Shown here: one piece after another, positions 9,427 to 26,175 of the stretch | Numbering within the stretch: position 1 is the first letter of the stretch | Layout: each line of letters begins with the position of its first letter | Source: Chitinophaga pinensis | GTDB lineage: Bacteria > Bacteroidota > Bacteroidia > UBA7662 | Length of the DNA stretch: 36,387 nucleotides | Assembly: GCA_945874665.1 (NCBI GenBank) | Contig: CAMCHJ010000019.1 | Location: 1 to 36,387, forward strand | Reading direction: 5' to 3' | The notes under the pieces: generated by a model | The model's input: the letters and a program-made list of their open reading frames with translations, nothing else | What the model was told of the DNA's origin: nothing | Databases searched by the model: none | Program-made: the position numbers and the translations under genes

Positions 9427-9778
9427 AACAATTTCATTTGAGATTTCACAAGATACCGAAAAGCCAGCTATAAGATTGAAAATTAACGCTTTTTAGGGAA
9501 TGTACTGGTGCTGCCTGCTGGAGCAAACGGCGACTTCTACGGAGGAGTCAGGCCAGTGCGTATGAAGCACCTTGCTGAGCGGCGCGGTCTGTAAACGTAC
9601 ATGCGACTGTAGCAAAAGAGACGCTAACAAATTTTGCCTAAAGTCAAAAAAACACTGGCTGAAGGCCCGCTTACTATCTCCTTTCAGAAAAAAAAACAAG
9701 ACTTATAGTACAATTAACAATTTCTTATTAATTTGCTCAAGATTTCATCACATAAATTCAAAAAACAATAATATAACC
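9427..9778. other. Gene-free divergent region between hflK and the T9SS protein gene
   Basis: About 350 bp with no convincing coding sequence. The plus-strand frame of the next gene remains open back to 9572, but those codons give a basic, low-complexity stretch unlike a signal peptide, so it is treated as leader. The last 80 bp are AT-rich and include TATTAATTTG, a poor match to the -7 consensus, so the promoter is not located with confidence. Confidence 0.5.
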
Positions 9779-10768
9779 ATGAAAAAAGCACTACTCCTCC
9801 TGGTGTTGGTAACGGCAGGTTACTTTGCAAAGGCTCAAACCACCAACGTGACTTTCCAGGTCGACATGAACGCCTACACCGGCACCTTCACCACCCCTGA
9901 GCTCAATGGCACCTTCAATGGCTGGTGCGGCAATTGTGCGCCCATGAGTGACCCAAACAACGACGGCATTTGGACCATCACCATTCCGCTGCCTATAGGT
10001 GCTACTGTTGAGTATAAGTTTTCGCATGACAACTGGGCTGGTCAAGAAACAAACAATCCAGCTGAGTCATGCACCAACGGCAACGCCCAATTTACCAACC
10101 GTGTATTGGTTGTACCCAGTGCCGCCACCACCTTGGGCGTAGTATGCTGGGGCTCTTGCTCGCCATGTGCGGCTACACCAACGACTGCCAATGTAACTTT
10201 TAGGGTCGACATGAACGAGTTCACAGGCACCTTCACCACACCTGAGCTCAACGGCACCTTCAACAGCTGGTGTGGCAACTGCGCCCCGATGACCGACGCG
10301 AACAACGACGACATTTGGCAAATCACCATCAACATGCCACTTGGCGACACGATAGAGTACAAATTTTCGCACGACAACTGGGGCGGGCAAGAAACCAATG
10401 ACCCTACAGCGCCATGCACCAACGGCAATACCCAGTTCACGAACCGCGTATTGATTATAAGTGGCGACACCATCATGCCAGCGGTATGTTGGGGCAGCTG
10501 CTTGCCGTGTGGCATGAGCAGTAACGTGGCAGAAATAGCGCCTAACAGTGTGCGCATGTTCCCAAATCCTGCCAAAGGCACCGTGACTTTTGAGAGCGAC
10601 GAGGCAGGCAGCATCCAGCTTTACGACCTCACTGGCCGCTTGGTGCTGCAAACCAAACTCGAGGCAGTATCACAAACGGTTTCGCTTGAGGGCCTCAAAG
10701 CGGGCTTGTATGTGGCGCAGTGGCAGGGACAAAAATCGACACAAAGCCTACGACTCATCGTACAATAA
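9779..10768 (+). CDS. Secreted protein with two carbohydrate-binding-like modules and a T9SS sorting domain
   Basis: 329 residues. A signal peptide (1-20, ending AKAQ) is followed by two near-identical modules of about 109 residues (from about 23 and 138). Each runs NVTFxVDMN, ELNGTFNxWCGNC, IEYKFSHDNW and CWGSCxPC, and each has conserved cysteines. The VDM...GTFN.W...YKF pattern resembles starch-binding-type (CBM20/CBM48-like) beta-sandwiches common in secreted Bacteroidota proteins. Residues about 257-329 (MFPNPAKG, LYDLTGRLV, LKAGLYV) form a type A T9SS C-terminal domain, so the protein should be exported by T9SS and fixed to the cell surface or released. There is no catalytic domain. The start at 9779 is chosen because it begins the signal peptide. 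Confidence 0.88.
   Translation: MKKALLLLVLVTAGYFAKAQTTNVTFQVDMNAYTGTFTTPELNGTFNGWCGNCAPMSDPNNDGIWTITIPLPIGATVEYKFSHDNWAGQETNNPAESCTNGNAQFTNRVLVVPSAATTLGVVCWGSCSPCAATPTTANVTFRVDMNEFTGTFTTPELNGTFNSWCGNCAPMTDANNDDIWQITINMPLGDTIEYKFSHDNWGGQETNDPTAPCTNGNTQFTNRVLIISGDTIMPAVCWGSCLPCGMSSNVAEIAPNSVRMFPNPAKGTVTFESDEAGSIQLYDLTGRLVLQTKLEAVSQTVSLEGLKAGLYVAQWQGQKSTQSLRLIVQ
9845..10516 (+). repeat. In-gene tandem duplication of a ~109-residue module
   Basis: The DNA from about 9845 and from about 10190 encodes the same module twice at a 115-codon period. Many codons match between the copies (for example CACCTTCACCAC and CACCTGAGCTCAA-type stretches), so the duplication looks fairly recent. It is separated by a short Ala/Thr/Pro linker. 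Confidence 0.85.
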
Positions 10769-10787
10769 AATTCTCCCTTATCTTAGA

Positions 10788-10815
10788 GCCCTCTCACAGC
10801 AGAGGGCTTTTTTTT
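10788..10815 (+). terminator. Intrinsic terminator after the T9SS protein gene
   Basis: GCCCTCT (10788-10794) pairs with AGAGGGC (10801-10807) across CACAGC, followed by eight T residues. It is a strong rho-independent terminator 19 bp after the stop at 10768. Its T-run ends only about 15 bp before the next ATG (10831). Confidence 0.88.
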
Positions 10816-10830
10816 GCCTAAACACAACTT

Positions 10831-12249
10831 ATGCGTAAATCACTCTTATTTATCGTTTCGGTGTTTTTCTTTTGGGGCTTTGTAGCTGCCAGCAACGACA
10901 TCCTTATCCCTGTTTTTAAAGAAAAACTACAGCTCTTACAGTGGCAAAGTCAGATGATTGCCTTTGCATTTTACGTAGCCTATACCGTAGGTTCGTTGAG
11001 TTATGTCGCCATTTCTAAGCTGCGTGGGCGCGATTTGGTAGCGAGTTGGGGCTACGGTAAATCGTTGGCCGTAGGATTGTTTATATCGGCGGCGGGTACG
11101 TTGTTATTCATCCCGGCAGCCAACAATGCTTCCTTTCCGTTATTGTTGATGGGTTTGATTGTGGTGGGCATCGGTTTTAGTCTGCAACAAACGGTTGCCA
11201 ATCCGCTCGCCATTTCCTTAGGCAGTCCCGAAACCGGCTCCCAACGCCTCAGCATGGCTGGCGGCATCAACAACCTCGGCACCACCTTAGGACCGTTATT
11301 ACTCAGCTTTGCTATTTTCGGACAAGCCGGTACGGGTGCAGCGCCAACGCTTGATATTGCAGCGGTTAAAATCCCTTACCTCATCCTTGGCGCCTGCTTC
11401 GTGTTTTTTGGCATGCTGTTTTGGCGGATGGATTTAGGAAAGCCCGAAGAAGCCATTTTGGATGAAAGTTCAAACACCCTCCCCACCGAAAGCATTTTCA
11501 AAGCACCACAAGTGTGGATGGGCATGATCGCCATCTTTTTATATGTAGGCGTCGAAGTAAGTACGGCCAGCAATTTGCCAGAGTACCTCAAAATGTACCA
11601 TGACATTAAGCTCGATCAAATGGCCCCTTACATTTCGTTGTTTTGGGCGAGTTTGATGATCGGTCGCTGGACTGCTGCCTCGGGTGCCTTGGGTGCTAAA
11701 GGCAGCCAACGTGCGCTTCTCCGTTGGGCGCTGCCAATGGTAGCTTTTGGCCTGTTTATGCTCATCAACATGCTCGGCGGCTATGATGTAACGCAGTTCA
11801 TACCCTTTATAGGCGCAGTATTGGTGCTGATAGTGGCCGATTTGCTGGTGAAAGGAAATCCTGTGAAGCAGTTGTTTTTATATGCCAGTCTGGGCATTGT
11901 AGCCACACTCGTAGGCATGTATGCAGAGGGGCCTGTGGCCATCTACTCCTTTATAGCTGTAGGTTTGTTTTGCTCTACCTTGTGGCCCTGCATTTTTACC
12001 TTGGCCATTGCTGGTATGGGCACCCGTACTTCGCAAGTTTCGAACGCCTTGATCATGATGATCATGGGTGGTGGTTTTGTAAGTGTTTTTCAAGGCTGGT
12101 TGAGCTCCGACGAACTGATGGGCATCCGCGGCTCCTACTGGGTGGGTGTTGTTTGCTTTGCCTACCTCGCCTTTTATGCCTACCGCATGCGGCTGGTATT
12201 GCAGAAAAGAGGCATTGTGCTGGAGGAGGCTGCTTCGAGCGGCCACTAA
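10831..12249 (+). CDS. MFS sugar:proton symporter, FucP/GluP family
   Basis: 472 residues with about twelve membrane helices. The N-terminus (FFFWGFVAASNDILIPVFKE) and the helix-4/5 region QQTVANPLAISLGSPETGSQ, GGINNLGTTLGPLL are typical of the fucose/glucose-galactose permease family (FHS group of the MFS), which imports free monosaccharides with protons. The conserved ANPL, in place of the NPY of FucP, favours the glucose/galactose branch, but the substrate is not proven. It converges on the carbohydrate operon with 6 bp between stops. The strong terminator just upstream leaves very little room for a promoter. A role in taking up sugars released by the adjacent glycosidases is inferred. Confidence 0.9.
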   Translation: MRKSLLFIVSVFFFWGFVAASNDILIPVFKEKLQLLQWQSQMIAFAFYVAYTVGSLSYVAISKLRGRDLVASWGYGKSLAVGLFISAAGTLLFIPAANNASFPLLLMGLIVVGIGFSLQQTVANPLAISLGSPETGSQRLSMAGGINNLGTTLGPLLLSFAIFGQAGTGAAPTLDIAAVKIPYLILGACFVFFGMLFWRMDLGKPEEAILDESSNTLPTESIFKAPQVWMGMIAIFLYVGVEVSTASNLPEYLKMYHDIKLDQMAPYISLFWASLMIGRWTAASGALGAKGSQRALLRWALPMVAFGLFMLINMLGGYDVTQFIPFIGAVLVLIVADLLVKGNPVKQLFLYASLGIVATLVGMYAEGPVAIYSFIAVGLFCSTLWPCIFTLAIAGMGTRTSQVSNALIMMIMGGGFVSVFQGWLSSDELMGIRGSYWVGVVCFAYLAFYAYRMRLVLQKRGIVLEEAASSGH

Positions 12250-12255
12250 GCTTGT

Positions 12256-12984
12256 TTAAAGCTCGAAAAGAAAGCCCTTTTGTACCAGTTGTTCGTAGCG
12301 CTTCGGATCGAACCTGAACAAGCGTGCGGGACGGTGGCGGACTTCTTTTTGGGTTTTGTCGAGGGGAATGAGCACATTCATCGACAACATTTTCTTTCTG
12401 AAATTCCCTTTGTCGAAAGCGGTATTGAGGATGGTTTCGTACAAATGTTGCAATTGTGCCAAGGTAAATTCTTCGGGCAAGAGCTCAAAGCCAATGGGCT
12501 GGTGCTGCACCTTGTGATGCAGGTGCGCCATGGCTGCTTCCAAAATTTGGCGGTGGTCAAAGGCCATCTCCCCGATTGCATCTAAATTTTTCCAATATGC
12601 TTCGCTGGCCCAGGAGGATGGGTGGGGATTGTACAAGTTTTTATCTAGCAAAGCGTAATACACCACTGTTACAACGCGCCCAATGGGGTGGCGGTGCACA
12701 GCACCAAAGGTGTTTATTTGTTCGAGGTATATGTCGGGAAGGCCTGTTAAATCGTGTAAAACGCGTTTAGAGGCCTGGGTGATGTCTTCATTCAACGTTA
12801 CCAAATCACCAGGTATGGCTTCAAAGCCGGCATAAGGCTCTACGCCCCGTTCAACCAACAATACCTGCAGATTTTGTCCGTCGTAACCAAAAACCACACA
12901 ATCAACCGAGATGCCAAACTGGAAAAAACTGTCTAATCGTTTGCGCTCGGCTTGCAGGTCGGAGGATATTTGGACTTGCGTCAT
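12256..12984 (-). CDS. NrtR/AraR-type regulator: inactive Nudix domain plus winged helix
   Basis: 242 residues. Residues about 20-150 form a Nudix fold (VDCVVFGYDGQNLQVLLVER) and about 155-242 a winged helix with the family signatures GFELLPEEFTLAQLQHLYE, GNFRKKML and RPARLFRFD. This is the layout of NrtR (NAD regulator) and of the Bacteroidota arabinose regulator AraR. The Nudix box from G59 to L82 keeps R74 and G81, but the catalytic glutamates of REUxEE are V75, D78 and L79, so hydrolysis is unlikely and ligand sensing is expected. It is the last gene of the eight-gene operon, 10 bp after the GH3 gene, so it probably regulates that operon in response to a sugar. Confidence 0.86.
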   Translation of the reverse strand: MTQVQISSDLQAERKRLDSFFQFGISVDCVVFGYDGQNLQVLLVERGVEPYAGFEAIPGDLVTLNEDITQASKRVLHDLTGLPDIYLEQINTFGAVHRHPIGRVVTVVYYALLDKNLYNPHPSSWASEAYWKNLDAIGEMAFDHRQILEAAMAHLHHKVQHQPIGFELLPEEFTLAQLQHLYETILNTAFDKGNFRKKMLSMNVLIPLDKTQKEVRHRPARLFRFDPKRYEQLVQKGFLFEL

Positions 12985-12994
12985 GGGTTTTGTA

Positions 12995-15235
12995 TTAATC
13001 GATTACAAAGGTAAGTGAATTAGCAACATCCGCGCTATTGGGCACCAGCCATGCGGTTACTTTTCCTTTAGCAAGATGTTTTTGTCCTTGGGCATCAAAA
13101 TGTGCAAGCGATCCAGGCGTAAGCATAAAAACCACCTTTTTGGTAGCGCCGGCTGCCAGTGGTAGCTGTTGAAAATCGAGCAATTGGCGGCCCGGACTTA
13201 TACCGTGCTTGCTGGCGGGTAGCTTGGCGTAAAGCTGTACGGTTTCGGTGCCAGCGACTTGCGATGTATTGGTGATTTCGACGCTTAAAACTACTTTGCC
13301 GTTGGGCAGTTGTTGTAATTTGGGCACGCTGTAAGTAAAGGTGCTGTAGCTTAGGCCGTAGCCAAAGGGGTAAACTGGACTGTTGGGCAGGTCGTTGTAC
13401 TGCGACCAAAACACCTCTTTCGAAGGTCCTGGCCGGCCGCCTGTATAATCATTGTAAGCCATGGGGATTTGGCCCTCGTGCCGTGGGAAAGTCATCGGCA
13501 GGCGCCCCGAAGGATTGTGATCGCCCAGGAGCACGGCTGCCACCGCATCGCCGGCATGGGTGCCAGGTTGCCAAGCGAGCAGCAGGGCACCGAGTTTGGT
13601 GCGGATGTCATCGGGAATTATGAGCGGCCTGCCTGCAAACAGCACCAGTACCACCCTTGGATGCTGCTGCACCAAGGCGCGTAAAAAAGCTTCTTGCAAA
13701 CCGGGTAGGTGAATGGAGGCACGGCTGCGGCCTTCACCCGACTGGTAGCCATGCTCGCCGAGTGCTACAATGGCCGTTTTGGCAGATAATGCCAGTGCCA
13801 TGGCCCCTGCCCAGCCTGTAGTGTCAGTTTCATTTACTTGTATAGGGGCGTGGAAGGCCTCGATACCGCTCCAAGCCACAGGACCACCTGCCCAGCGCAG
13901 GTCGGGGAAATAGGCCTGCAAACCCGTTGTGAGGGGAATGGCCGTACCATTATCAGCCGACACCCGCCAGTTGCCCAGGGGCGCCGTGCGGTCATTGGCC
14001 AAGGCCCCAAGCAACACTACGTCTTCGTTGAGTTGTAGGGGCAGTATCCCTTTGTTTTCGAGCAAAACCATCGATTTTTTCGCCATTTCAAGCGCATCTT
14101 TGTGTAAAGTGGCGCTGCCGATGGTGGTGGCCTCGCGTTCTTCATCGCAATAACGATAAGGATCATCGAACAAGCCGAGGGCGAATTTGAGTCGCAGGAT
14201 GCGTCGCACGGCTTCGTTAACACGCGCTTCTGGCACCCGCTTTTGCCTCACAGCATCGGCCAAATGCCGGACGTAGGCCATCGATTCCATGTCCATATCG
14301 CAACCCGCCAAGGCCGCCAACTCCGCAGCCTCCTGCAAAGAAGCCGCATACCCATGGGCCATCATTTCCTGAATGGAGCCCCAATCCGATACCACCATCC
14401 CCTTAAAAGCCCAGTCCTTTTTAAGAATCTGGCGCATCAAAAACGAATCGGCCGACGCAGGAACGCCATTGTAAGCCGTAAAGGCATTCATAAAAGTGGC
14501 CACCCCAGCCTCTTGCGCGGCTTTAAAGGGCGGCAAAATGTTGTTGTACAGGGTATAAGCGCTAAAATCGGTGTGGTGGTAATCGCGACCCGCTTGCACA
14601 TAGCCATAACCTGCAAAATGTTTGGCGCAGGCGGCGATGGTATTGGGTGCACTTAAATCATCCCCCTGAAAACCCCGCACCCGTGCCGTAGCAATACGCG
14701 CACCGAGGTAAGGATCTTCGCCGGCACCTTCCATCACCCTGCCCCAGCGTGGGTCACGCGAAATATCGACCATCGGCGCGAAAGTCCAGTTAATACCCGC
14801 CGCCGATGCCTCTGTGGCCCCATTGCGTGCAGACTTTTCGATGGCTTGGAGGTCCCAGCTCGCCGCCTCCGCCAAAGGAATGGGCGTAAGGGTTTTGTAA
14901 CCGTGAATGACATCGCAGCCAAAAATCAAAGGAATACCCAAGCGGGTTTGCTCCACGGCAATTTTTTGCAAGGCCCGCACTTCTTTTACACCCTGTACAT
15001 TTAAAACCGAACCTACCCCGCCTTTTCTAAGGATTTCGTAGCGCTCTAAGGAGTTGCCTTCGGCGGGCACAGGCCCTGTGGCATTCCAAAAGCCGTTAAA
15101 CTGGTTCATTTGACCTATTTTTTCATCCAAAGTCATGAGCCGCATCACCGAATCGATGCGCTGCTCAAAGTTTTGGGCAGAAACCAGGGAGGCACAAGGC
15201 AAAAAAAAGAGCGAAAGGAGTAAACGCAGCTTCAT
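12995..15235 (-). CDS. bglX: Periplasmic beta-glucosidase, GH3 family
   Basis: 746 residues from the ATG at 15235 (a GTG one codon upstream is possible). A signal peptide (about 1-20, ending SAQ) precedes a full GH3 architecture: the N-terminal barrel with LMTLDEKIGQM and GCDVIHGYKT, the nucleophile D284 in GMVVSDWG, the C-terminal sandwich domain (ALGEHGYQSGEGRSRA) and a fibronectin-like domain with YPFGYGLSYSTF. The family releases terminal beta-glucose from short beta-glucans, and BglX of E. coli is the closest named relative. It is seventh in the operon, directly after the GH16 gene, which fits a two-step breakdown of beta-1,3/1,4-glucan. Confidence 0.94.
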   Translation of the reverse strand: MKLRLLLSLFFLPCASLVSAQNFEQRIDSVMRLMTLDEKIGQMNQFNGFWNATGPVPAEGNSLERYEILRKGGVGSVLNVQGVKEVRALQKIAVEQTRLGIPLIFGCDVIHGYKTLTPIPLAEAASWDLQAIEKSARNGATEASAAGINWTFAPMVDISRDPRWGRVMEGAGEDPYLGARIATARVRGFQGDDLSAPNTIAACAKHFAGYGYVQAGRDYHHTDFSAYTLYNNILPPFKAAQEAGVATFMNAFTAYNGVPASADSFLMRQILKKDWAFKGMVVSDWGSIQEMMAHGYAASLQEAAELAALAGCDMDMESMAYVRHLADAVRQKRVPEARVNEAVRRILRLKFALGLFDDPYRYCDEEREATTIGSATLHKDALEMAKKSMVLLENKGILPLQLNEDVVLLGALANDRTAPLGNWRVSADNGTAIPLTTGLQAYFPDLRWAGGPVAWSGIEAFHAPIQVNETDTTGWAGAMALALSAKTAIVALGEHGYQSGEGRSRASIHLPGLQEAFLRALVQQHPRVVLVLFAGRPLIIPDDIRTKLGALLLAWQPGTHAGDAVAAVLLGDHNPSGRLPMTFPRHEGQIPMAYNDYTGGRPGPSKEVFWSQYNDLPNSPVYPFGYGLSYSTFTYSVPKLQQLPNGKVVLSVEITNTSQVAGTETVQLYAKLPASKHGISPGRQLLDFQQLPLAAGATKKVVFMLTPGSLAHFDAQGQKHLAKGKVTAWLVPNSADVANSLTFVID

Positions 15236-15241
15236 CACAGG

Positions 15242-16075
15242 CTAAAAGGGTTCGTACAAAAACGAGCGAATCACAATTTCATAGTCGTTGGCCGTGCTCG
15301 GTCCTGTGGCCTGGTTGGTTACCAACCACAAATTGATGCGGGCGTTGGTGGTAGGCCCCGGCGCCGGTATGATGATTGGTCTGCTGGTGATGCCCCCCTC
15401 CTCTTTTACACGCGCAGGATTATTTAGATCGAACTCCCAAGTAGCAAAAGGCGGGTCGCTGCTTTTGTCGCCGAGCCAGCTTTTCCAGCTAATGAGACTG
15501 TCGGTCCATATAAACTCATGGGTAGTGTGTGTGGTGGCCGCTGCCGCTGGCATTTGATAGCCTTGGGTGCGTTCGGCTTTAAAAGGGCCAAACCAAACGG
15601 GCTGCACCGACATGTGCAATGTTTTGGGATCGCCGGCCACGCCCCAACGGCTAAACTCAATATCCACTTCGCTGTTGGCTTCGTTGACCAGGGTGTTGTT
15701 GTCCCAGGTAAATAACCCCAGCACTGTGTTATCGGGAATATTTACCATATCCGACTCCACCACCCATACATACCGGCCATAGCCTACCACATCGTTCGAA
15801 ATCACCTCAGAGCAATACCAACGGTTGTCGTTGAACTTGCGGATATTGAGGTGCAGGTAGCCACGGTCGTCGAGGTAAGCCGAGCGGAGGTCTTTGCTGA
15901 AGTAATTTGGGCCTGGACCGAACTGCTCTGTGCCCCCTTTGACCGTCCAAATGCGGCCGCTAAAATTGAGCTGATCGCCTGATCGTCCTTGCGGCGCCGG
16001 GGCCGTTTCGATGGCACAGCCAGACAAAAGTGTACTGGCCAACAAGGCCAAAAGCGCTAGGCGTTGCTTTTTCAT
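15242..16075 (-). CDS. GH16-family lipoprotein (beta-glucanase-like)
   Basis: 277 residues. A lipoprotein signal ends at Cys20 (LLSGC), so the protein is membrane-anchored, probably in the outer membrane. The body fits a GH16 jelly roll. The catalytic strand is SEVDIEF at 135-141 (E136, D138, E140), matching the ExDxE core of GH16 with two catalytic glutamates. Aromatic-rich segments (NRWYCSEV, GRYVWVVESDM, LGLFTWDN) line the predicted cleft. GH16 enzymes cut internal beta-1,3 or beta-1,4 bonds in laminarin, lichenin, agar or carrageenan; the exact substrate cannot be read here. Neighbouring GH3 and clan-A genes favour a beta-glucan. Confidence 0.87.
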   Translation of the reverse strand: MKKQRLALLALLASTLLSGCAIETAPAPQGRSGDQLNFSGRIWTVKGGTEQFGPGPNYFSKDLRSAYLDDRGYLHLNIRKFNDNRWYCSEVISNDVVGYGRYVWVVESDMVNIPDNTVLGLFTWDNNTLVNEANSEVDIEFSRWGVAGDPKTLHMSVQPVWFGPFKAERTQGYQMPAAAATTHTTHEFIWTDSLISWKSWLGDKSSDPPFATWEFDLNNPARVKEEGGITSRPIIIPAPGPTTNARINLWLVTNQATGPSTANDYEIVIRSFLYEPF

Positions 16076-16083
16076 GGTACTAT

Positions 16084-17328
16084 TTAGGGTTTAAAGAGTA
16101 ATTCGCCCCATAAGGCAGGACTTTGGTGAAACCCTTCTTGGTCGGCACTGTTCCAGCGCAACTGTTCGCGGCGTGCACGGGCATCGCCTTGGTCGCGGGC
16201 CATTTCGAGCAGGTAGCGACCAGCAAGGCGCCAGGGCTCGCGTGCCAAATCGCTCCAGCGGAGGGTAGCCGTTACGCGGTAGCCACCCTGAGGCAGGGCT
16301 GTTATTTCGCGTTGTAATGGCACTGACTGCTGGGTGCGGAAATCGATGGCTTCGGCCTTTTCGCCTAAACCAATGCCCAGATGGATGTCGCTGAATAAAA
16401 AGCGACCGCGGGGTCGGCTCGACAATTCGGGTTGGGCAGCCAGGGCCACTTCCAAAGCATCACCGTTCCATAAGTTGGCCCCTGTTTGTCCGTTTTGAGG
16501 CATTTCGGCATCGGCCAAGAGGGCTTCTACGCATAAATGTTGGTTGTCCCAGCGCAAGCGCATCGAGTCGCTGCCCACGGCCTGCCAAGGAATTTGCGTA
16601 AAATTGCCCGCCGTTGCTGCTGCCGCTTGTTTGCGGGAAGTGCCGGCATGGCGCACAAGGCGGATGTGCCGCAAAATCACTTCTCCGGCTGCTTCAAACT
16701 GAATGATGAGCTGCTTGATGTTGGAGGCATCTGTGTTTTGCTCGGCCCAGTTAAACTCCTGCAAAGGCAAGCGGATGTGGGCGTATTGGTTGCCAATGGG
16801 ACCGTCGATTACCCAGCGGGCCGACATGCCCATCCAGGCTTGGCGGTTGCTGTAGTCTTCGAGACCAAAAGCCAAGGGCAGGGTCTTTACTGGCCTGCCC
16901 GCCGGAAGTTTTACCTTGAGTTCGATGGCGGCACTGTCGAGCAAAGGCGCCAGGTTTTTACCCGACCACATGTCCCAGCCCACGCCCATGCCCACCCAGC
17001 TGCAGCCCCCACCGGGCTTGTCCCAGCCAATGGTATAAGTAGTATCGCCATTCAGTTTGATTCGCATGCAGCCCTTTTTACTGTCACTCCAGAGCTCCTC
17101 TCCTGCTGCGCCATCTAAAATAACGAGCGACGAAAAGCCTGCTATTTGCTCGTAGTCATTATCGGGATTAGCCATTTCGTACAGCCCCTGGTTGGCAGCA
17201 AAAACCACCTTGCGCGTACTTTGCACTTCCACCTCTTGGAGGAAAAGGGTACGCAGGCTGTCGGGCAACTGTGCCCATGCACTACCTACCAGCAACAAAA
17301 ACGCCATGGCCAGGAGTCCTTTTCTCAT
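16084..17328 (-). CDS. Secreted protein with galactose-binding-like and CBM9-like domains
   Basis: 414 residues with a signal peptide (1-19, ending AWAQ). Residues about 40-230 look like a CBM11/galactose-binding beta-sandwich (GWDMWSGKNLAPLLDSAAIELKV, IRLPLQEFNW, KQLIIQFEAAGEVILRHIRL, each only a short part). Residues about 245-414 resemble CBM9 (MRLRWDNQHLCVEALL, NLWNGDALEVAL, GYRVTATLRWSDL), a domain that binds sugar chain ends. No glycosidase motif is seen. The first four bases overlap the end of the preceding lipoprotein gene (ATGA), so the two are probably made together and may form a glycan-binding pair. Function is inferred from fold resemblance. Confidence 0.75.
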   Translation of the reverse strand: MRKGLLAMAFLLLVGSAWAQLPDSLRTLFLQEVEVQSTRKVVFAANQGLYEMANPDNDYEQIAGFSSLVILDGAAGEELWSDSKKGCMRIKLNGDTTYTIGWDKPGGGCSWVGMGVGWDMWSGKNLAPLLDSAAIELKVKLPAGRPVKTLPLAFGLEDYSNRQAWMGMSARWVIDGPIGNQYAHIRLPLQEFNWAEQNTDASNIKQLIIQFEAAGEVILRHIRLVRHAGTSRKQAAAATAGNFTQIPWQAVGSDSMRLRWDNQHLCVEALLADAEMPQNGQTGANLWNGDALEVALAAQPELSSRPRGRFLFSDIHLGIGLGEKAEAIDFRTQQSVPLQREITALPQGGYRVTATLRWSDLAREPWRLAGRYLLEMARDQGDARARREQLRWNSADQEGFHQSPALWGELLFKP

Positions 17329-18317
17329 GGCTGAACGGGTTGATTGATTGAAAAGGCCAATAAATCCATATCACACTCGGTGTATCCGCTCGTAGGATTT
17401 CCTAAAAACAACATATCTACCCGGAGTAACTTATGAGGTTCGTGCACGCCATTGCCTTTGGGCGCGCTAGGAGCACCATTTTCGAGGGCTACCAAATCGA
17501 CATAACGGGTGCTTTTTAACTCCCAAATGGCCCCTGGCCGGATTTCAATGGCCCACATATCTTCATTGGCTTGGTTAAAAGTACCATCACCATTATCATC
17601 TTCGCGAAATTGCAGCAGGATGATGCCATTGTTGAGGTTGGCGCGCTGCCTGTAAATACCGTTAAAATACACGGAGGCTGCGTTGTTTGGTAATCCAAAA
17701 CCAGCTGTGCTGTTGTAGGCAGCGGCATTAAGGGTAAGCATGCCCTTGAGCCAGTCCCAATTCACGGTGCCACCCATCTTATAATACTGCTTGCCTTCGG
17801 CCAAAGGCGGGGTGGAATCGATCCTAAACTTCATTTCGGCGCCTGTTTGTACAAAGGGCACCCAGGTACCAGAAATCCCTGTTTCAAAATTATCGAGTAC
17901 AATGGCATCGAGCACCCGCTTGCCGGTTACTTCGATGGTACTGCGCAGGGTATCGGTTTGGTCTTTGAAGGTGAGCATCACATCGCAGCTTTCTAAGCCA
18001 AAAGTGGGAAATTGCGTGGTTTCACCCAGCCAGCGGCTGTTGGTGAGTTCGATGCTGCGCGACTTGCCGGTGATGCGTTTTACTGCGCCTGACGTACGGC
18101 CAGTAATCTCGATTTGCCAATCGATTAAAATGCTCATTCGGGCTGAAAAATGGACTTGTTCGCCAGTTTCAAAATTCACTTGCGTGGCCGAAACTGTCAA
18201 GGGCTCGAGGACGCGGAAATTGCCGTATAAATCCGACAAAAGTGGGCCTGCGGGTTCTAAATCGCGTTGACATCCACCAAAAACCAAAAGGGTTAAACCA
18301 AAAACCAGGTATCTCAT
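17325..18317 (-). CDS. Lipoprotein of unknown function in the glycan operon
   Basis: 330 residues. The signal ends at a lipobox cysteine (LLVFGGC, Cys16) and is followed by a beta-rich body. About 25-130 looks like an Ig/PKD-type fold (VSATQVNFETGEQVHFSA). About 140-330 has the look of a CBM11/galactose-binding sandwich (IVLDNFETGISGTWVPFVQ, YYKMGGTVNWDWLKGMLTLN). I recognise no named family. Position suggests a surface glycan-binding protein taking the place that SusD/SusE-type proteins hold in ordinary loci. Its end overlaps the CBM9-like gene by four bases. Confidence 0.7.
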   Translation of the reverse strand: MRYLVFGLTLLVFGGCQRDLEPAGPLLSDLYGNFRVLEPLTVSATQVNFETGEQVHFSARMSILIDWQIEITGRTSGAVKRITGKSRSIELTNSRWLGETTQFPTFGLESCDVMLTFKDQTDTLRSTIEVTGKRVLDAIVLDNFETGISGTWVPFVQTGAEMKFRIDSTPPLAEGKQYYKMGGTVNWDWLKGMLTLNAAAYNSTAGFGLPNNAASVYFNGIYRQRANLNNGIILLQFREDDNGDGTFNQANEDMWAIEIRPGAIWELKSTRYVDLVALENGAPSAPKGNGVHEPHKLLRVDMLFLGNPTSGYTECDMDLLAFSINQPVQP

Positions 18318-18320
18318 GAC

Positions 18321-19976
18321 TTAAAATTGAATAAAATAAGCTAAAAATCCAGAACGGATGTTCATTTGAATACCGGCCTCGCGCACATTGCTGAGCAGCA
18401 TTCCGGCTTGGAGGGTCGATTTGCCGAATACCTTGTAGCTCACCGATAAAACGGGCAGGGTTTCAACATAGTCGTATTTCACTTCGTTATAGAACACAAT
18501 TTCGTTTTGGGCATTGCGCTCCGCATTGAAACCGGTTCCGCGGTTTTGTACTTGAATCAAACCGGCATCAAAACGCAGGTCTTTATTGAGCTGATACCCC
18601 AAATTGGCACTCAACCAAGGCATTTGCACGTTGAGGGCAGGCACCTCGGCATTATCGCTGGGGCGGAAGGCATTTTGGTAGCGGTACATCAGCTTGGCAT
18701 CGAACTTTCGCAGGGCATAGCCTGCGGTTACCTCAGCTCTTGTGAACTGGGTGAGGTTGGTAGTTCCGCTGCCGCGGATTTCGCTGAACCATTGCAGGCG
18801 GGTGCTGAGCGACAAGCCCTTTACCAAGACACCAGGCTGCCAACCGATGGTTACACCGCGGCGGTTGGGGGTGGCTTCTCCAAATGGATCGAGCAAGAGG
18901 TAGTTCGATTGATCGTCGCCCAGGGTGGTACTCCAAGCCGCACGGTACAAACCGGCTTCGCGGGCAAAGTCGTACAAACTGGCAGTGCGCAATGCACGTT
19001 CGTTGCCTACTGCACGAAACGAGCGGGGAATGCCGGCGGGATTGTACGCTGTGGTTTGGGCGGCGGGATTAAAATAATCGGGGCCCACTTCCGCATAACG
19101 TACTTGCCACTGCTTGCCTATTTTGAGGCCAACGGTGTAGAAATAGTCGCTTTTGACAGTATTACCTGTGTCGGCAAACTGACTGCGTGAGTTGCCCAGC
19201 TCCCAGTTTAAACGCAGGAATCCGTTGCCCAAGCTGCCATCGGTAGCCAATACGGTATTGCGGTACAAGTCGGTGCTGGCCGAGGTGCCACCTAGGTCGT
19301 TAACCGATACCAAGGTACCACCCACCCGCAACGGAAAATCGCCCCAAATGAGTTCGGTGCGACCACCAAATGCCCATTGCTCGGTGGCAGCACCGCCAAA
19401 ACCTGGGCGCAAACGCATGGCAAAAAGGGAGTTAGACATTTTTTGAGGTCCTTTTTTAAACAACAGCCCAAAATCGAGCGCGGCGCCTTGCGTACGCCAG
19501 GTACCGTTGTTATTCATAAACACATCGTAGCCCGGCATGTTTTGTTGGATGGTTTGCATGGCCTGCACCCCATTAAACAGCTCCAAAACTGGAGCAGCAC
19601 GAAACATGGTATAGGGTGTGAGGGCATAATCCATATCGCCCACGGTGTACTTAAAGCGGTTTTGGATGAGGCCCTTCACGGTAAGCTGACGGATATCGAA
19701 ACTAACGCCTGAGCCCCAAAAGCCGCCATAATCGTTACGTATGCGCACCATGGCTTGCACCTCGGTAGCGGCATTGGGCCGGATGTTGACGCCCAAATCG
19801 GCCAGCACATGGCCCGAATTTTCGCGTGGCAAGGTCACCGTATCACCTGCCAGCTGTAGCCGGTCGGCAAAATACACCGCCCGTGCCCCGCCATTAAGCG
19901 AAAATTTAGGGGGTGGCGACTGACCGAAGCTTTGTACGGCCGAAAATAAACTTAGCAGAAGGAGGAAATTTTTCAT
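18321..19976 (-). CDS. Outer-membrane beta-barrel protein (551 aa), family not recognised
   Basis: Signal peptide (1-19, SFGQ), then alternating hydrophobic/polar strands throughout (FTRAEVTAGYALRKFDAKLM, RFDAGLIQVQNRG) and a terminal strand ending AYFIQF. A C-terminal phenylalanine preceded by alternating aromatics is the signal read by the BAM assembly machine. There is no TonB-dependent plug domain or TonB box, so it is not a SusC. A porin-like role is inferred. Its ATG overlaps the stop of the larger barrel gene (TGATG at 19974-19978), so the two barrels are translationally coupled. Confidence 0.8.
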   Translation of the reverse strand: MKNFLLLLSLFSAVQSFGQSPPPKFSLNGGARAVYFADRLQLAGDTVTLPRENSGHVLADLGVNIRPNAATEVQAMVRIRNDYGGFWGSGVSFDIRQLTVKGLIQNRFKYTVGDMDYALTPYTMFRAAPVLELFNGVQAMQTIQQNMPGYDVFMNNNGTWRTQGAALDFGLLFKKGPQKMSNSLFAMRLRPGFGGAATEQWAFGGRTELIWGDFPLRVGGTLVSVNDLGGTSASTDLYRNTVLATDGSLGNGFLRLNWELGNSRSQFADTGNTVKSDYFYTVGLKIGKQWQVRYAEVGPDYFNPAAQTTAYNPAGIPRSFRAVGNERALRTASLYDFAREAGLYRAAWSTTLGDDQSNYLLLDPFGEATPNRRGVTIGWQPGVLVKGLSLSTRLQWFSEIRGSGTTNLTQFTRAEVTAGYALRKFDAKLMYRYQNAFRPSDNAEVPALNVQMPWLSANLGYQLNKDLRFDAGLIQVQNRGTGFNAERNAQNEIVFYNEVKYDYVETLPVLSVSYKVFGKSTLQAGMLLSNVREAGIQMNIRSGFLAYFIQF

Positions 19977-22000
19977 CAGAACAACAACTTCAATTCAATA
20001 GTAGATTCAGTGCCGCGGTATTTGTCAAATTCATAACTGCGGTCTTCAAAAGCAAAATATTTGTGGCGCAAGTACACGCACACATTATCGGCTGCCCAAA
20101 TGTCGATACCGATGCCGCGGGCAGCACCATACTGTTCAAAAGGCCGGCCAAGAACGTTCTGAGGGATCACAATACCCCCTAAAGAAATGTCGCCGCTGAG
20201 CATCATTACCAAACTGATGCGGCTGTTCCACTGCAGATAAAGCTCATTTTCGGTAGCGTATTGGCGCAGTATGGCTTGCGGCGCCGTTTTAATTACAGCG
20301 GCTTGGGTTTGCACCGAGGCAGCGCGCAGGAGGTGGTTAAACACCAGCACCTTTTCGCCCAAACGGATGCGGTACAAGGCCTGCAACTCGAGCTGAGAAA
20401 AATACAAGGCTTCGTTGATGGGATTTCTAAAATCGAAACGCTCGTAAGTGCTGCGGTATAAAACATTGGTTCGGCCATAGGGACCTACATGTTGCGGGAA
20501 GCCCCATCGGTAAAAGCGACTGCGGGTAAGTGCGTTCACCGGCCTGCCAAACGAAATGTTGGTGGCGCCGGTAGTGATTTCGCGACTCAAACTATATCCT
20601 CCCGAAAAATACACATTGGCGGGTTGAAAGCCGATGTTGAGGTCGATGCCTTGTCGGTTGTTGGCCAACTGTCCAAAGCCCAAAAGCGACGAGCCACTGG
20701 GAAAAAGCAGCGCACCACTGCCAGCTTGTCCTGCCGGGATATTCGAAATTGACGCCTCGGCCACGCTGGTATTTACAAAAGCCCCCACGTTGTTTACTGC
20801 ACCAGGGTCGATGTAATAGGCCTGACCAAAGAGTCGCAGGCTTTTGTTGATTTGCCAGCGCACCTTGGATTGGGCCACGAGGCCGCCTTGCTGACCAAGT
20901 TGGGTAGACTGGTAACCGGAATAACCTGCCTCTAGGTCAAAATTAAATTGCTTTTGCAAGCGACTTATTTTAACCGTATGGATTTGCGAGCCAAACCGTT
21001 GGGTCAACAAACTATCGGTGTACGACCGTTGGTTCATGGTTTGGGCACTCAGTCGCCAGTGCGTGGTCATGAGCCATTGGTATTGTCCACCCCAAGCCGC
21101 ATTCGGCCGCAGGTCGAAGCCCCCATTTTGCTCGTTTTTACCAAACATCAATTTGGCACTCTGATTTTTTGGCAGCTGGCTCATGCTCAAGACGGCACCT
21201 GTAAAGGCTCTTTTACCCCAGCGCTCTTCTTGATCTACCCTGCCTGCATCCACATAGCGGTTGTATCGCTGATGCACACTGCTGCCAATGGGATCCCAGG
21301 GATTGCGATCAAACAGCATGTAGCGCTCATAGGCGGTGTAGGCACCCATGGTCAGGTCGGTCATGTCTTCCCAGTGAATGCCTCCCAATTTAATGGCCAA
21401 CGGACCCAGTGCGGTAGGCACCGTGGCGTGCAGGTTGATGCCCAGGTTGAGTAAAAGACTTTGACCGAGGCGCGGGCTGCCGAGGGGATTATCGAGACCA
21501 GGGCGAGCGGTATCGGCCGTAGGCTGACTGTAGGCCGCCAAACCTGGCCTGTCGAGGAACTGAAAAGCGAATAAATCTAACCCCCAACTCACTCCTGAGC
21601 GCGATTTGCCGTTGATGTTGATGAGCATATTGGGCAGTTGCGTATCGTCGCCAATAAACACCTCACGCAAAGGCAAATTGCTGGTGGGCAAGAAGGCATA
21701 CGGCGCAGGCATGTTGCGGTAAGTACCAAAAAACCGGTAAAAGCCATTCACATTCAGCGACCGCAGGCGGCTGGGCTCCATTTTTGGGAAGGTACCAAAA
21801 TCGGTCGACGCCAGACGTTGGTTATTGTTGCTATCCACAAACAAGCGCCACAGCAAAGATGCTTGGGGACTGAGCCGTTTCAAAGGCGCTGAGGTGGTGC
21901 TGTCGGCCGGCATTAAAGCGGGTGCTGAAGGCTGGGCCATCGCCCTGCCCGTACCTATGAGGACCAATGCCAGCAGTAGAAAACGTAAAAACTTGTTCAT
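19976..22000 (-). CDS. Outer-membrane beta-barrel protein (674 aa), family not recognised
   Basis: Signal peptide (1-22, AMAQ) followed by a short Pro/Ala/Thr-rich stretch and a long beta-strand region beginning SLNVNGFYRFFGTYRNMPAP. The protein ends in a terminal strand finishing ELKLLF, a BAM-type C-terminus. It has many aromatic-girdle strands and large asparagine/glycine-rich loops, as in porins or outer-membrane scaffolds, and no TonB plug. The start overlaps the GH gene upstream by four bases (ATGA). Possible roles are oligosaccharide diffusion channel or anchor for the surface enzymes; sequence alone does not decide. Confidence 0.8.
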   Translation of the reverse strand: MNKFLRFLLLALVLIGTGRAMAQPSAPALMPADSTTSAPLKRLSPQASLLWRLFVDSNNNQRLASTDFGTFPKMEPSRLRSLNVNGFYRFFGTYRNMPAPYAFLPTSNLPLREVFIGDDTQLPNMLININGKSRSGVSWGLDLFAFQFLDRPGLAAYSQPTADTARPGLDNPLGSPRLGQSLLLNLGINLHATVPTALGPLAIKLGGIHWEDMTDLTMGAYTAYERYMLFDRNPWDPIGSSVHQRYNRYVDAGRVDQEERWGKRAFTGAVLSMSQLPKNQSAKLMFGKNEQNGGFDLRPNAAWGGQYQWLMTTHWRLSAQTMNQRSYTDSLLTQRFGSQIHTVKISRLQKQFNFDLEAGYSGYQSTQLGQQGGLVAQSKVRWQINKSLRLFGQAYYIDPGAVNNVGAFVNTSVAEASISNIPAGQAGSGALLFPSGSSLLGFGQLANNRQGIDLNIGFQPANVYFSGGYSLSREITTGATNISFGRPVNALTRSRFYRWGFPQHVGPYGRTNVLYRSTYERFDFRNPINEALYFSQLELQALYRIRLGEKVLVFNHLLRAASVQTQAAVIKTAPQAILRQYATENELYLQWNSRISLVMMLSGDISLGGIVIPQNVLGRPFEQYGAARGIGIDIWAADNVCVYLRHKYFAFEDRSYEFDKYRGTESTIELKLLF

Positions 22001-23310
22001 GGCAGCTGACTAAAAGTTTCAAATTGCACCATTTTGCGAGGGCGCTGGCCTTCGGGGAGCGGCTGCACAAAAACCGGCACATTGCCGTATGCTACCCAGC
22101 CATCCACATCGGCATAAATAAAAATGCGGTAGGCGCCTTCGGTTTCAGGAGCTTTGAGCGACAAGGATTTTCCATTGAATTTGCGCACCTTTTTGCGCTC
22201 AATGCTGGCTGGACGACCTTCTACGTCGCCACCGGATTTAATGTCCTGACTTTCGGGGATAATTTCGTACCTCAATTTCACCTCCTCCAGCGACTGGCTT
22301 TGCAAAGCCAAGGGTAACTCGATGGCATCGGCCGCTTGGGTCATCAAATAGGGTTTTTCGAAGCCGCCCAACGATACGGGGGCGGGCTCTTGGGTGCCCA
22401 TCCAGGCTTGTTTAATGGCCCAGAGGGTTTCGGTTTTTTCTTTGTATTCGGTGAAAATGCCGTACCAGCTGGGCGTGGTTTCTTGTTTTTGTCCCCATAA
22501 AAACACGTAAGAGCCCATGCAATGCGCCTTCTCCGCCCAAATTTTATCTTGATAGCGGCGGGTATAACTTTCGGCCTTTTGTGCGCTGCTTTGCTCGAGG
22601 GGTGCTCCCCAAGGCGCGCGTTTTACTTCCCAGTGGCCGTTAGGGCCCCATTCGGTAATCATGTACGGGCCCGTCCAGCCGAAGCGCTCAATCTGACTCG
22701 GCAGTTTATCGAGGTCGCCATAAGTATTAATGCTGTAAAAATCGAGGCTCGGACAGCGCGCTTTGATCAGCTGCACCTCAATAGAATCGAGGCCGGCGGT
22801 AATGGTAGTAGTAGGATGGTGCGGGTCGATTTCTTTGATCATTTTGGCGATGTCTTCTACCGCGTACCACACATTGGTATTGCTGTAATTGAGGTCTACC
22901 TCGTTACCCACACCCCAAGCCAATAAGGCGGGATGGTCTTTCAGTGCCAGCACCTCCTTGCGGAAGGCATCTTTTTGTCGGCGCACCGCCACCGAATCGT
23001 CGTAATCGAAGCCATGGCGCTCGTGCTGCAGCCAGAGGCCCATCATCACCGTGAGCCCATGTTTGTGGGCTTCATCCAAAATTTGCAGCGCATTTTCGGC
23101 GCCCCAAGTGCGGATAGAGTTGCCACCCGATGCCACCACTTCTTTGAGATAAACCGAGCCACCGGCGCCTTTTACGTAATAAGGCTGGCCATTGCGCAAC
23201 AGCGTAAATTCACCGGAAGCGTTTTTACCTACTTCGGTATGAACTGGCTGCGCCTGAAGACGAGCGCTTGTGAGCAGCCAGCCAGCTATCCATAATAAAG
23301 TCCACCTCAT
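21997..23310 (-). CDS. Clan GH-A glycoside hydrolase (GH2-barrel-like), first gene of the operon
   Basis: 437 residues. Signal peptide (1-20, LQAQ), then a TIM barrel opening with LLRNGQPYYVKGAGGS, the loop also found in GH2 C-terminal domains. SIRTWG, the acid/base E137 in WGVGNEVD and the nucleophile E220 in YMITEWGPNG mark it as a clan A retaining enzyme. Residues about 320-437 form a beta-sandwich appendage. It lacks the two N-terminal sandwich domains of ordinary GH2 enzymes. Activity on a beta-glucan is likely from context but not shown. The gene is preceded by a promoter-like sequence and leads the eight-gene operon. Confidence 0.86.
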   Translation of the reverse strand: MRWTLLWIAGWLLTSARLQAQPVHTEVGKNASGEFTLLRNGQPYYVKGAGGSVYLKEVVASGGNSIRTWGAENALQILDEAHKHGLTVMMGLWLQHERHGFDYDDSVAVRRQKDAFRKEVLALKDHPALLAWGVGNEVDLNYSNTNVWYAVEDIAKMIKEIDPHHPTTTITAGLDSIEVQLIKARCPSLDFYSINTYGDLDKLPSQIERFGWTGPYMITEWGPNGHWEVKRAPWGAPLEQSSAQKAESYTRRYQDKIWAEKAHCMGSYVFLWGQKQETTPSWYGIFTEYKEKTETLWAIKQAWMGTQEPAPVSLGGFEKPYLMTQAADAIELPLALQSQSLEEVKLRYEIIPESQDIKSGGDVEGRPASIERKKVRKFNGKSLSLKAPETEGAYRIFIYADVDGWVAYGNVPVFVQPLPEGQRPRKMVQFETFSQLP

Positions 23311-23334: not shown

Positions 23335-23366
23335 CAAGTTATAGTATATTTTACAATTACCACAAA
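23335..23366 (-). promoter_or_regulatory. Candidate promoter of the carbohydrate operon
   Basis: On the minus strand TTTG (23366-23363) is followed after 19 bp by TATAACTTG (23343-23335), a near match to the Bacteroidota -7 element at the correct spacing, about 25 bp upstream of the first ATG (23310). No obvious palindromic operator for the Nudix regulator was found in 23311-23521. Confidence 0.35.
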
Positions 23367-23873: not shown

Positions 23874-25235
23874 TTACCGCAAAATATAATACTGATACGG
23901 CGCTAGGCTCAGCTCGCTGCCCAAGGTCAACGAATCTTGCGCCATCACATCCCACCAGGTTTTGTTGGCCAAGGCGGCGGGTAGGCTCAGCGATTGCTGG
24001 CTGTTGCGTACATTAGCAAAAACGGCCACCGTTTCAGCCTGGTGGGTTTTGGTAAAGGCCACTATGTTGGTATTGGCAAAGCTGGTAAGCGCACCTCGCC
24101 TTGCGGCCCTGGAGCTGGCATAAAACTGCAGCATGCGCTGTTTGGCGGCTAAAAAAGCAGGGTTGGCGTTCCAGTTGATGGTGGAGCGGCTGAAAAAAGG
24201 CAGTGTGCCGGATCTGGCTACTTCCTGACTGCTGTAAAGGAGCGGCACGCCATTCAAAAAATTAGTGATGACCCAGGCCGACATGGCCCCTGCTTGTCCG
24301 TTAAACAGCTGAATAGGCGTGGCGTCCCAGGCCGACTCGTCGTGGTTGGTGGTAAAGCGCACCCAATGTTTGCCAGCGGGAGTATTGAGGTATTCGTTGC
24401 TGCTGGTGGTAACCAAATGACCAGCGGTTTGTCCGTTGAACACATTTTTGAGGGCGCCATAAAAGGCCCAGCCAAAGCTCAGGTCGAAACCCGCTTCGAA
24501 ATGATTGCTGCGACTACCTTCTGCAAAAAAGATGATGTTGCGTCCAGCCATGGTGTCGGTGCTTTGGATGGCCTGCTGCCAGAAGTCGAAAGGCACGCCG
24601 TCGGCATAATCGCACCGAAAGCCGTCGATGTTGGCCTCATAAATCCAGTAGTGCATGGCCTCAATCATGGCCTTGCGCATGTTTTGGTTGTTGAAGTTGA
24701 GGTCGGCCACGTCCAACCAATTGGTACCTGGCGGGTGGATGATGGTACCGCTGGCATTTTGGGTGTACCAGCTGGTGCTGTCGAGCCACGGGTGGTCCCA
24801 GGCGGTGTGGTTGGCCACCCAGTCGAGCATCACGGCCATGCCGCGGGCGTGGGCGGCATCGGTAAACTGGCGGAGGTCAGCGAGACTGCCGTATTCGCTG
24901 GCCACGGCTTTGTAATCGCGCACCGAGTAGGGCGAGTTTACCGAGTTCACCGTGCCAATGGGGTAGATGGGCATGAGCCAGATGACATTGGTGCCCAGAC
25001 TTTTGATGTGATCGAGCTTGGCGATGACGGCTTGCAAATTGCTGCCAGGACCAAAAGCCCGCAGGTTTACCTCGTACATCACAATGTCGTCGATGGCAGG
25101 CATGGCGGTAAACGGCTGTCCGTAGCCTGGGCGATTGTTGGGATTTTGCGGATCGATGAGCGTGTTAGGGGTATCTTTTTTACAGCCAGTAGTCCCCAGC
25201 AAAACCAGCAGCAGCCAAACGGCAACCTTCATCAT
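23874..25235 (-). CDS. GH13 alpha-amylase-family lipoprotein
   Basis: 453 residues from the ATG at 25235. A lipoprotein signal ends at Cys18 (LLGTTGC). All four GH13 signature regions are present: D138-W-V-A-N-H143 (region I), GFRCD with nucleophile D209 (region II), acid/base E239 in FFAEG (region III) and N297-H298-D299 (region IV). These enzymes cut alpha-1,4-glucans such as starch, glycogen or maltodextrins. The short C-terminal beta domain ends YQYYIL. The frame extends 35 codons further to 25340, but those residues are not signal-like, so 25235 is preferred. It is a single gene separated from the beta-glucan operon by the BRO-N remnant. Confidence 0.9.
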   Translation of the reverse strand: MMKVAVWLLLVLLGTTGCKKDTPNTLIDPQNPNNRPGYGQPFTAMPAIDDIVMYEVNLRAFGPGSNLQAVIAKLDHIKSLGTNVIWLMPIYPIGTVNSVNSPYSVRDYKAVASEYGSLADLRQFTDAAHARGMAVMLDWVANHTAWDHPWLDSTSWYTQNASGTIIHPPGTNWLDVADLNFNNQNMRKAMIEAMHYWIYEANIDGFRCDYADGVPFDFWQQAIQSTDTMAGRNIIFFAEGSRSNHFEAGFDLSFGWAFYGALKNVFNGQTAGHLVTTSSNEYLNTPAGKHWVRFTTNHDESAWDATPIQLFNGQAGAMSAWVITNFLNGVPLLYSSQEVARSGTLPFFSRSTINWNANPAFLAAKQRMLQFYASSRAARRGALTSFANTNIVAFTKTHQAETVAVFANVRNSQQSLSLPAALANKTWWDVMAQDSLTLGSELSLAPYQYYILR

Positions 25236-25505
25236 GCGAAGCCCACGGGGGTTGCATACAAACAGACGAAGGAAACAAAGGGGCATGCGCTCGTATTTAA
25301 GTGTGCAAGCTAAGCAATTCATGCAATTCCCGAAAATCAAAGCCTTTGGATGGGGGGAAATCGCCTGTTTTTCGAATCAGCACAATAAATATTACCTTAT
25401 TTCAAAAGCAAAACGCCCAACATCCCTCAAAGCACAGCTAATGAAGCCGATTCAAAAGCAGGTAAATAGGCACCAAAAAACAGGTAACAAACACTTCATC
25501 CCAAC

Positions 25506-25895
25506 TCACATATAAAAATAAAAGAACACAATCACCTGCCTGCGCCTGAGTCCATCGGCCCTGCCTATAAACCTGCCGTTGCCATCATACAGCCGGTCGC
25601 CATCTATCCGCCCTAAATTGGCTCCTGTGCCACTGTAGAGCCTATCGCCATCCACGCGGCCCATTTGGCGCCCGTTGCCGTCGTAAATGCGCTCGCCATC
25701 GATCCTGCCAATGTTTCTGCCTGAGCCGTCATAAATCCGCTCGCCATCGACCCTGCCGATGTTACGACCACTGCCATCGTAATAGCGTTCGCCATCTACC
25801 CTGCCGATGTTACGACCAGTGCCATCATACATGCGCTGCGCATCGGCGGCAGTGAAGCAAAGCAGGAGCAGGAACATCAGGATTAGCTTATGCAT
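25506..25895 (-). CDS. Small secreted protein of six 16-residue repeats (beta-flower-like)
   Basis: 129 residues. A signal peptide (1-20, ADAQ) precedes six tandem 16-residue repeats of the form YDGxGRxIGRVDGERx (residues 23-118) and a short hydrophobic aromatic tail (VIVFFYFYM). Such repeats are predicted to make short beta strands with DG turns. The pattern resembles Bacteroidota proteins described as five-fold beta-flower proteins, an assignment I make from memory of the repeat style. The ATG at 25895 starts the signal peptide; the frame is open to 26024 but the extra residues are not signal-like. Function unknown. The next protein at 26667 has the same plan with different repeats. Confidence 0.82.
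   Translation of the reverse strand: MHKLILMFLLLLCFTAADAQRMYDGTGRNIGRVDGERYYDGSGRNIGRVDGERIYDGSGRNIGRIDGERIYDGNGRQMGRVDGDRLYSGTGANLGRIDGDRLYDGNGRFIGRADGLRRRQVIVFFYFYM
25542..25829 (-). repeat. Tandem 48-bp coding repeats, six copies
   Basis: Six in-frame 48-bp units encode YDG-x-GR-x-IGR-x-DG-x-R. The copies nearest the N-terminus are the most alike (stretches such as CTGCCGATGTTACGACCA recur) while the last ones have drifted, which suggests expansion at the 5' end. Confidence 0.9.
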
Positions 25896-26175
25896 GTCTT
25901 TTATTTTTAAAGATTGACAACGTACGGCTGCTAAGATAACAAGGTTTGAACGTTGTAATAGCACATGTCGCGTATTTCGCTCCGCAGCTACGCCTTGTTC
26001 ACCGCCTGAGACGCTCTTGACCACCGTGTGCGCAGCACGCCATCAAAAAAGCCCTACTTTTAGCGAAAAGACCGCATGTCTTTCATTTTGGAGCAAAAAC
26101 ACATCCTCAACCAGCATTTTGAAATAATGCCTGGCAGGCTAGTTATATTCACTCCTTGATTAAATACTAAACAAA

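Follow-up and report, generated by a model that had tools for sequence, protein, structure and literature searches.

Organization of the locus

The window, that is, the whole 36,387-nucleotide stretch of Chitinophaga pinensis DNA that was analysed, contains eight tightly coupled genes on the minus strand, between positions 12256 and 23310. In the order of transcription, they encode a GH158 enzyme, two outer-membrane barrels (BarA and BarB), a lipoprotein (LIPO), a CBM protein, a GH16-like lipoprotein, a GH3 enzyme and a Nudix-type regulator. The GH158 and BarA genes overlap by 4 nt, the BarA and BarB genes by 1 nt, and the LIPO and CBM protein genes by 4 nt. The other junctions are gaps of 3 bp (BarB/LIPO), 8 bp (CBM protein/GH16), 3 bp (GH16/GH3) and 10 bp (GH3/regulator). 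An earlier note on this DNA had described eight same-strand genes, separated by at most 10 bp or overlapping by 1-4 nt, without SusC or SusD. The coordinates and junctions indeed match the list of open reading frames, and the eight genes include neither a TonB plug nor SusC or SusD. The extent of the locus had been drawn too narrowly: all eight genes are present, but a secreted CBM protein and an MFS symporter (9779-12249) also belong to it. This pair, a T9SS-secreted protein and a GluP-type symporter, lies to the left of the unit on the opposite strand and is convergent with it, and homologues of both adjoin the corresponding locus in relatives. The gene content is supported directly.

A GH13 gene upstream of the unit (23874-25340) was considered as a further member and rejected, because it is 563 bp distant and not conserved in locus L002. 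Elsewhere in the window, a minus-strand gene at 25506-26024 encodes a short protein in which a unit of about 15 residues (YDGSGRNIGRVDGER) is repeated in tandem. Between 28000 and 36387, the G+C content drops from about 0.50-0.53 to 0.35-0.41 and the open reading frames are short and scattered, possibly marking an island or foreign segment.

Enzymes

The first gene of the unit (21997-23310, minus strand) encodes P0008, a GH158 endo-beta-1,3-glucanase with a Sec signal peptide (signal peptides were judged by eye). In a phmmer search of the PDB, P0008 matched 9oro (E 2e-91) and 6pal (E 1e-60) over nearly its full length, and its catalytic glutamates E137 and E220 align with those of the GH158 structures. 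Both criteria for the family, homology and the Glu pair, are met, so that the previous description as a clan GH-A enzyme can be refined to this endo-beta-1,3-glucanase family. The likeness to 9oro and 6pal concerns the enzyme only; the transport module is not part of the comparison.

The GH16-like lipoprotein (15242-16075, minus strand), a putative endo-beta-glucanase, carries an E-x-D-x-E motif (E136/D138/E140) and a lipobox cysteine (C20) that are invariant in 14 homologues. It does not match the Pfam GH16 model, and its profile finds the GH16 lichenases (1,3-1,4-beta-glucanases) only weakly (E 0.004). The requirements for GH16 membership, the ExDx(x)E motif and homology, are met by an invariant motif and a weak profile match, and the identity proposed in the note is upheld. 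As the motif is of the lichenase type, mixed-linkage glucan is a possible substrate. For GH158 and the GH16 lipoprotein, both the surface and the periplasm are possible sites of action.

The GH3 enzyme (12995-15238, minus strand) is a BglX-like beta-glucosidase according to Pfam and NCBIfam, with a Sec signal peptide and a predicted periplasmic location. Its listed start is a GTG, with an in-frame ATG one codon further on. The protein has about 30% identity to the GH3 enzymes in the usual position of other modules; judging from this divergence, an exchange of GH3 seems to have occurred in this lineage.

Barrels, lipoprotein and CBM protein

BarA (19976-22000, minus strand, 674 aa) and BarB (18321-19976, minus strand, 551 aa) occupy the positions of CHU_1276 and CHU_1277 in the Cytophaga hutchinsonii cluster discussed below. 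The AlphaFold model of BarB (pLDDT 88.5) has about 22 strands, the first of which begins at residue 25, leaving no space for a plug. Two long BarB segments, 117-160 and 297-372, look internal and are rich in conserved residues. For BarA, the model is of moderate confidence (pLDDT 76), with a disordered N-terminus and a barrel from about residue 80. Homology between the two proteins is supported by hhalign (E 2e-11), and an N-R-x-G motif is common to both. Neither has a confident match in Pfam or NCBIfam, sequence profiles found none in the PDB, and the TonB plug model PF07715 did not match, so that the plug criterion of a TonB-dependent receptor is not met. In Foldseek searches, both barrels came out near generic barrels alone (porins, ushers, AlgE and TonB receptors), at TM-scores no higher than about 0.5; for BarA, the neighbours comprise both porins and TonB-dependent receptors. 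Assignment of BarB to the DUF6029 barrels was rejected. On the strength of the predicted structures and the missing PF07715, the two proteins can be regarded as plug-less barrels, as the note had it. Its reading would have fallen had they proved to be known unrelated proteins, and no such family was matched.

LIPO (17325-18317, minus strand) resembles surface glycan-binding lipoproteins and stands in the position of CHU_1278. Its lipobox cysteine C16 is invariant in 38 homologues, but Pfam, NCBIfam and PDB searches gave no confident family match, and the only domain signal is a weak one for CBM11. The CBM protein (16084-17328, minus strand), in the position of CHU_1279, lacks a lipobox. It had been described as CBM9-like, which holds for its C-terminal domain (CBM9_1); to this must be added an N-terminal CBM30/CBM11-like domain (profile match to 2c24/1wmx in the PDB, E 6e-5).

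Secreted CBM protein, symporter and regulation

P0011 (9779-10768, plus strand) contains CBM48/CBM20/CBM56-like domains and a T9SS C-terminal sorting domain according to Pfam. Its start was set at the ATG at 9779, the mechanical ORF beginning at 9572. A homologue adjoins the locus in many relatives. The MFS symporter (10831-12249, plus strand) is of the GluP/FucP type, predicted to import glucose across the inner membrane; it matches TIGR01272 (gluP) with E 1e-50, under the curated cut-off. The symporter is adjacent to the locus in L002, L003, L004, L041, L042, L059 and L061.

The last gene of the unit (12256-12984, minus strand) encodes a regulator in which the Nudix domain and the NrtR/AraR winged helix were both found (PF21906, PF19368, PF00293), in agreement with its earlier designation. 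It shares this combination of domains with the NrtR/AraR Nudix regulators, and its homologues lie next to GH158 in many loci. It probably belongs to a sugar-responsive branch.

One operator-like element of 17 bp is present upstream of each transcription unit: CTTATAGTACAATTAAC (9702-9718, plus strand) before the secreted CBM protein and MFS genes, and GTTATAGTATATTTTAC (23338-23354, plus strand) 28 bp upstream of the GH158 start, where it overlaps a Bacteroidota-type promoter recognized by eye. The two share 13 of 17 bases. The pattern was derived from these two sites, and their count in the window is therefore not independent evidence. The exact 23338 element occurs once in the genome, and L002 has a conserved counterpart in front of GH158. 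In other genomes, matches of at least 13/17 precede the CBM or Nudix genes in 10 of 21 loci, compared to 3% of 348 control upstream regions. The shared element is thus directly supported; binding of the Nudix protein to it is inferred.

Other regulatory genes are found at some modules. A gene for a protein of 236-247 aa immediately precedes GH158 and the module in L054, L059 and L062, and encodes an ECF sigma factor in L059. In parallel, an ECF sigma factor reportedly controls CHU_1276. In L066, L067, L068, L075, L076 and L077, a divergent protein of 940-960 aa adjoins the module in place of the Nudix regulator; that of L067 combines Reg_prop/Y_Y_Y repeats with a LuxR-type helix-turn-helix.

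Conservation of the module and related substrates

Of 395 Bacteroidia genomes sampled, 48 contain BarA and 49 contain BarB. All 48 genomes with BarA also have BarB, and in the sole genome with BarB alone the locus runs into a contig end. In about 40 loci, BarA, BarB and LIPO follow one another in this order, as a rule with the CBM protein next, and the gaps are mostly -4 to +11 bp; larger negative values arise because the longest start codon was chosen. The same order of BarA, BarB and LIPO is also found outside Bacteroidia, in other classes of the phylum. BarA and GH158 occur together in 43 genomes, against 8 expected (Fisher p 6e-35, uncorrected for shared ancestry), which directly supports the linkage to a beta-1,3-glucanase. 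Conservation of the gene order without SusCD had been suggested as a check, and it holds in dozens of genomes. Decay of a SusCD locus through loss of its transporter was rejected as an explanation, since the module is conserved and co-inherited. GH158-like genes also occur as adjacent pairs (L138-L141, L144, L147 and L148), with SusCD and the barrel module absent nearby; in several cases one member of the pair is very long, about 1,300 aa.

Related modules are accompanied by GH18 and NagB-type deaminases (chitin, family f14) or by GH9 (cellulose). One adjoins GH97 and a GH13-like gene (alpha-glucan), and its substrate is probably a starch-like glucan. The loci were labelled by their neighbouring enzymes, and all those left over were labelled beta-1,3-glucan; GH18 was confirmed in 6 of the 7 loci with the chitin label. 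On the BarA tree, the four labels require three changes, the minimum possible, and none of 200 shuffles gave an equally low number. The chitin-type module of L160 adjoins phosphofructokinase and GAPDH genes, with genes of similar size at L154, L157, L159, L161 and L162.

Absence and replacement of SusCD

SusCD is treated as a hallmark for finding glycan loci of Bacteroidota. The window locus meets one criterion of a canonical polysaccharide utilization locus (PUL), with its clustered CAZymes, glycan-binding surface proteins and linked regulator, but not the transporter criterion, as no SusC or SusD was found among the window genes. None was found beside the modules examined either, although the same detector finds SusCD at the control loci L133 and L135-L137. 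At L189, a distant module locus, a TonB receptor without SusD lies about 5 kb away. The only SusCD pair in the window's genome adjoins an amylase, and several genomes of the order have no SusCD pair.

In two genomes, G374 and G390 (L136 and L137), a SusC/SusD pair, a candidate PKD-CBM4 lipoprotein and a GH16 enzyme stand where BarA-BarB-LIPO-CBM would be expected. The flanking genes, for the secreted CBM protein, Nudix regulator, GH158, SSF symporter and GH3, are those of module loci. In the GH158 tree, 37 module-linked sequences and those of L136/L137 form one clade (98/95), with the latter two nested inside it (99/95). The replacement itself is directly supported; that SusCD displaced the module there, and not the reverse, is most likely in view of the nesting in the tree. 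Of all the findings, this exchange speaks most strongly for a functional equivalence of the two systems.

Proposed function

We think it likely that the locus is a SusCD-free utilization system for beta-1,3-glucan, combining capture, cutting, passage through BarA/BarB, glucose import and Nudix control. The substrate may be a beta-1,3-glucan of laminarin, callose or curdlan type, perhaps along with mixed-linkage glucan. The secreted CBM protein, LIPO and the CBM protein would capture the glucan at the surface, and the GH16 lipoprotein would cut it; these locations are inferred. The resulting gluco-oligosaccharides would cross the outer membrane via BarA/BarB, where LIPO and the CBM protein would serve as a lid or for docking. 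The barrel fold is supported by prediction; passage through the barrels and its independence of TonB are inferences. Periplasmic GH158 and GH3 would then release glucose for import by the GluP-type symporter, and the Nudix regulator may control both transcription units through their common 17-bp element. The evidence for the window locus consists of sequence and models, without growth, expression, binding or transport data. The note had suggested an alternative machine for glycan capture, digestion and uptake: conservation without SusCD and replacement by SusCD in two genomes speak for it, and uptake via the barrels is still an inference. Its beta-glucan pathway is supported by the GH158, GH16 and GH3 trio, and can be sharpened to beta-1,3-glucan specifically.

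The barrels might instead be scaffolds or adhesion platforms for the lipoproteins and GH16, with oligosaccharides entering through one of the 20 plug-bearing TonB receptors encoded elsewhere in the window's genome. Import by one of these is not excluded, and in C. hutchinsonii even CHU_1279 variants that bind cellulose poorly can rescue growth, pointing to a structural part for this protein in a complex (PMC12016534). We nevertheless consider this explanation unlikely, as SusCD takes the place of the module in the same gene context and the barrel lineages follow the neighbouring enzymes. A paper on CHU_1276, at least by its title as cited in PMC12016534, also names a protein involved in glucose uptake.

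Tight coupling of the barrels with lipoproteins in nearly every locus would equally suit conduits that export or display the lipoproteins and GH16, one or both barrels not being importers at all. It is hard to explain, however, why SusCD should functionally replace an exporter, or why barrel clades should track the substrate, and the surface lipoproteins of SusCD loci are not known to need a locus-specific exporter. An export role thus appears quite improbable. Remodelling or recycling of the cell's own beta-glucan exopolysaccharide is harder still to credit: self-made beta-1,3-glucan is a conceivable substrate of the enzymes, but no glycosyltransferase, polymerase or export gene was recognized nearby, and the linked MFS or SSF sugar symporters, the sugar-type Nudix regulator and the chitin and cellulose enzymes of sister modules speak against such a role.

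It is about as likely as not that BarA-BarB-LIPO serves Bacteroidota as a second, general system for importing glycans across the outer membrane. Such a system would work without a TonB plug, comprise lineages specialized for beta-1,3-glucan, chitin, cellulose and probably alpha-glucan, and have been interchangeable with SusCD in evolution. About 12% of the 395 sampled Bacteroidia carry the module, so that SusCD-based surveys would miss such loci. Through the natural SusCD swap, it can be tested directly whether the barrels perform the same task without TonB.

Comparison with known systems

The Bacteroides uniformis 1,3GUL has the same GH16, GH158 and GH3 trio and surface glycan-binding proteins, but SusC/SusD and a hybrid two-component regulator in place of BarA/BarB and the Nudix regulator (PMC7157763). 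A literature search for a published SusCD-free GH158 locus gave only a laminarin PUL without susCD in an NS4 MAG (PMC10108472), and nowhere were BarA and BarB described.

The closest architecture is that of chu_1276-chu_1280, an "atypical PUL" of C. hutchinsonii with two outer-membrane proteins, two SGBP-B-like proteins and an endoglucanase, which was reported from three cellulolytic species only (PMC12016534). Where tested, these genes are important or essential for cellulose use, whereas the SusCD pairs of C. hutchinsonii are not (PMC12016534). Both loci have tandem outer-membrane proteins followed by SGBP-like proteins, a glycanase and no SusCD, and the architecture criterion is met. They differ in the enzyme, a cellulase there and GH158, GH16 and GH3 here, and in the Nudix regulator and MFS symporter of the window. 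As C. hutchinsonii is not among the sampled genomes, the connection is indirect and relies on gene order and CHU_1279 landmarks. The GH9-type loci encode a 380-aa tandem CBM protein with landmarks YxxF 89/92, F180, YxxF 255-256/258-259 and F349-350; the six landmarks of CHU_1279 (375 aa; W89, F92, F180, Y253, F256, F343) recur there at the same or slightly shifted positions. BarA, BarB and LIPO of these loci are homologous to those of the window; by this indirect chain, the window locus appears to belong with the chu-type system. The window CBM protein also matches the CHU_1279-like protein of GH9 loci (hhalign E 3.5e-5, probability 72%).

In view of the chu cluster, the idea of a SusCD-free PUL is not wholly new. 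The locus is nevertheless real and conserved, and represents a beta-1,3-glucan form, so far largely undescribed, of an atypical SusCD-free locus type previously known only for cellulose. The module generalizes the puzzling cellulose system of C. hutchinsonii and adds variants for soluble glucan and chitin, which lend themselves more readily to assays.
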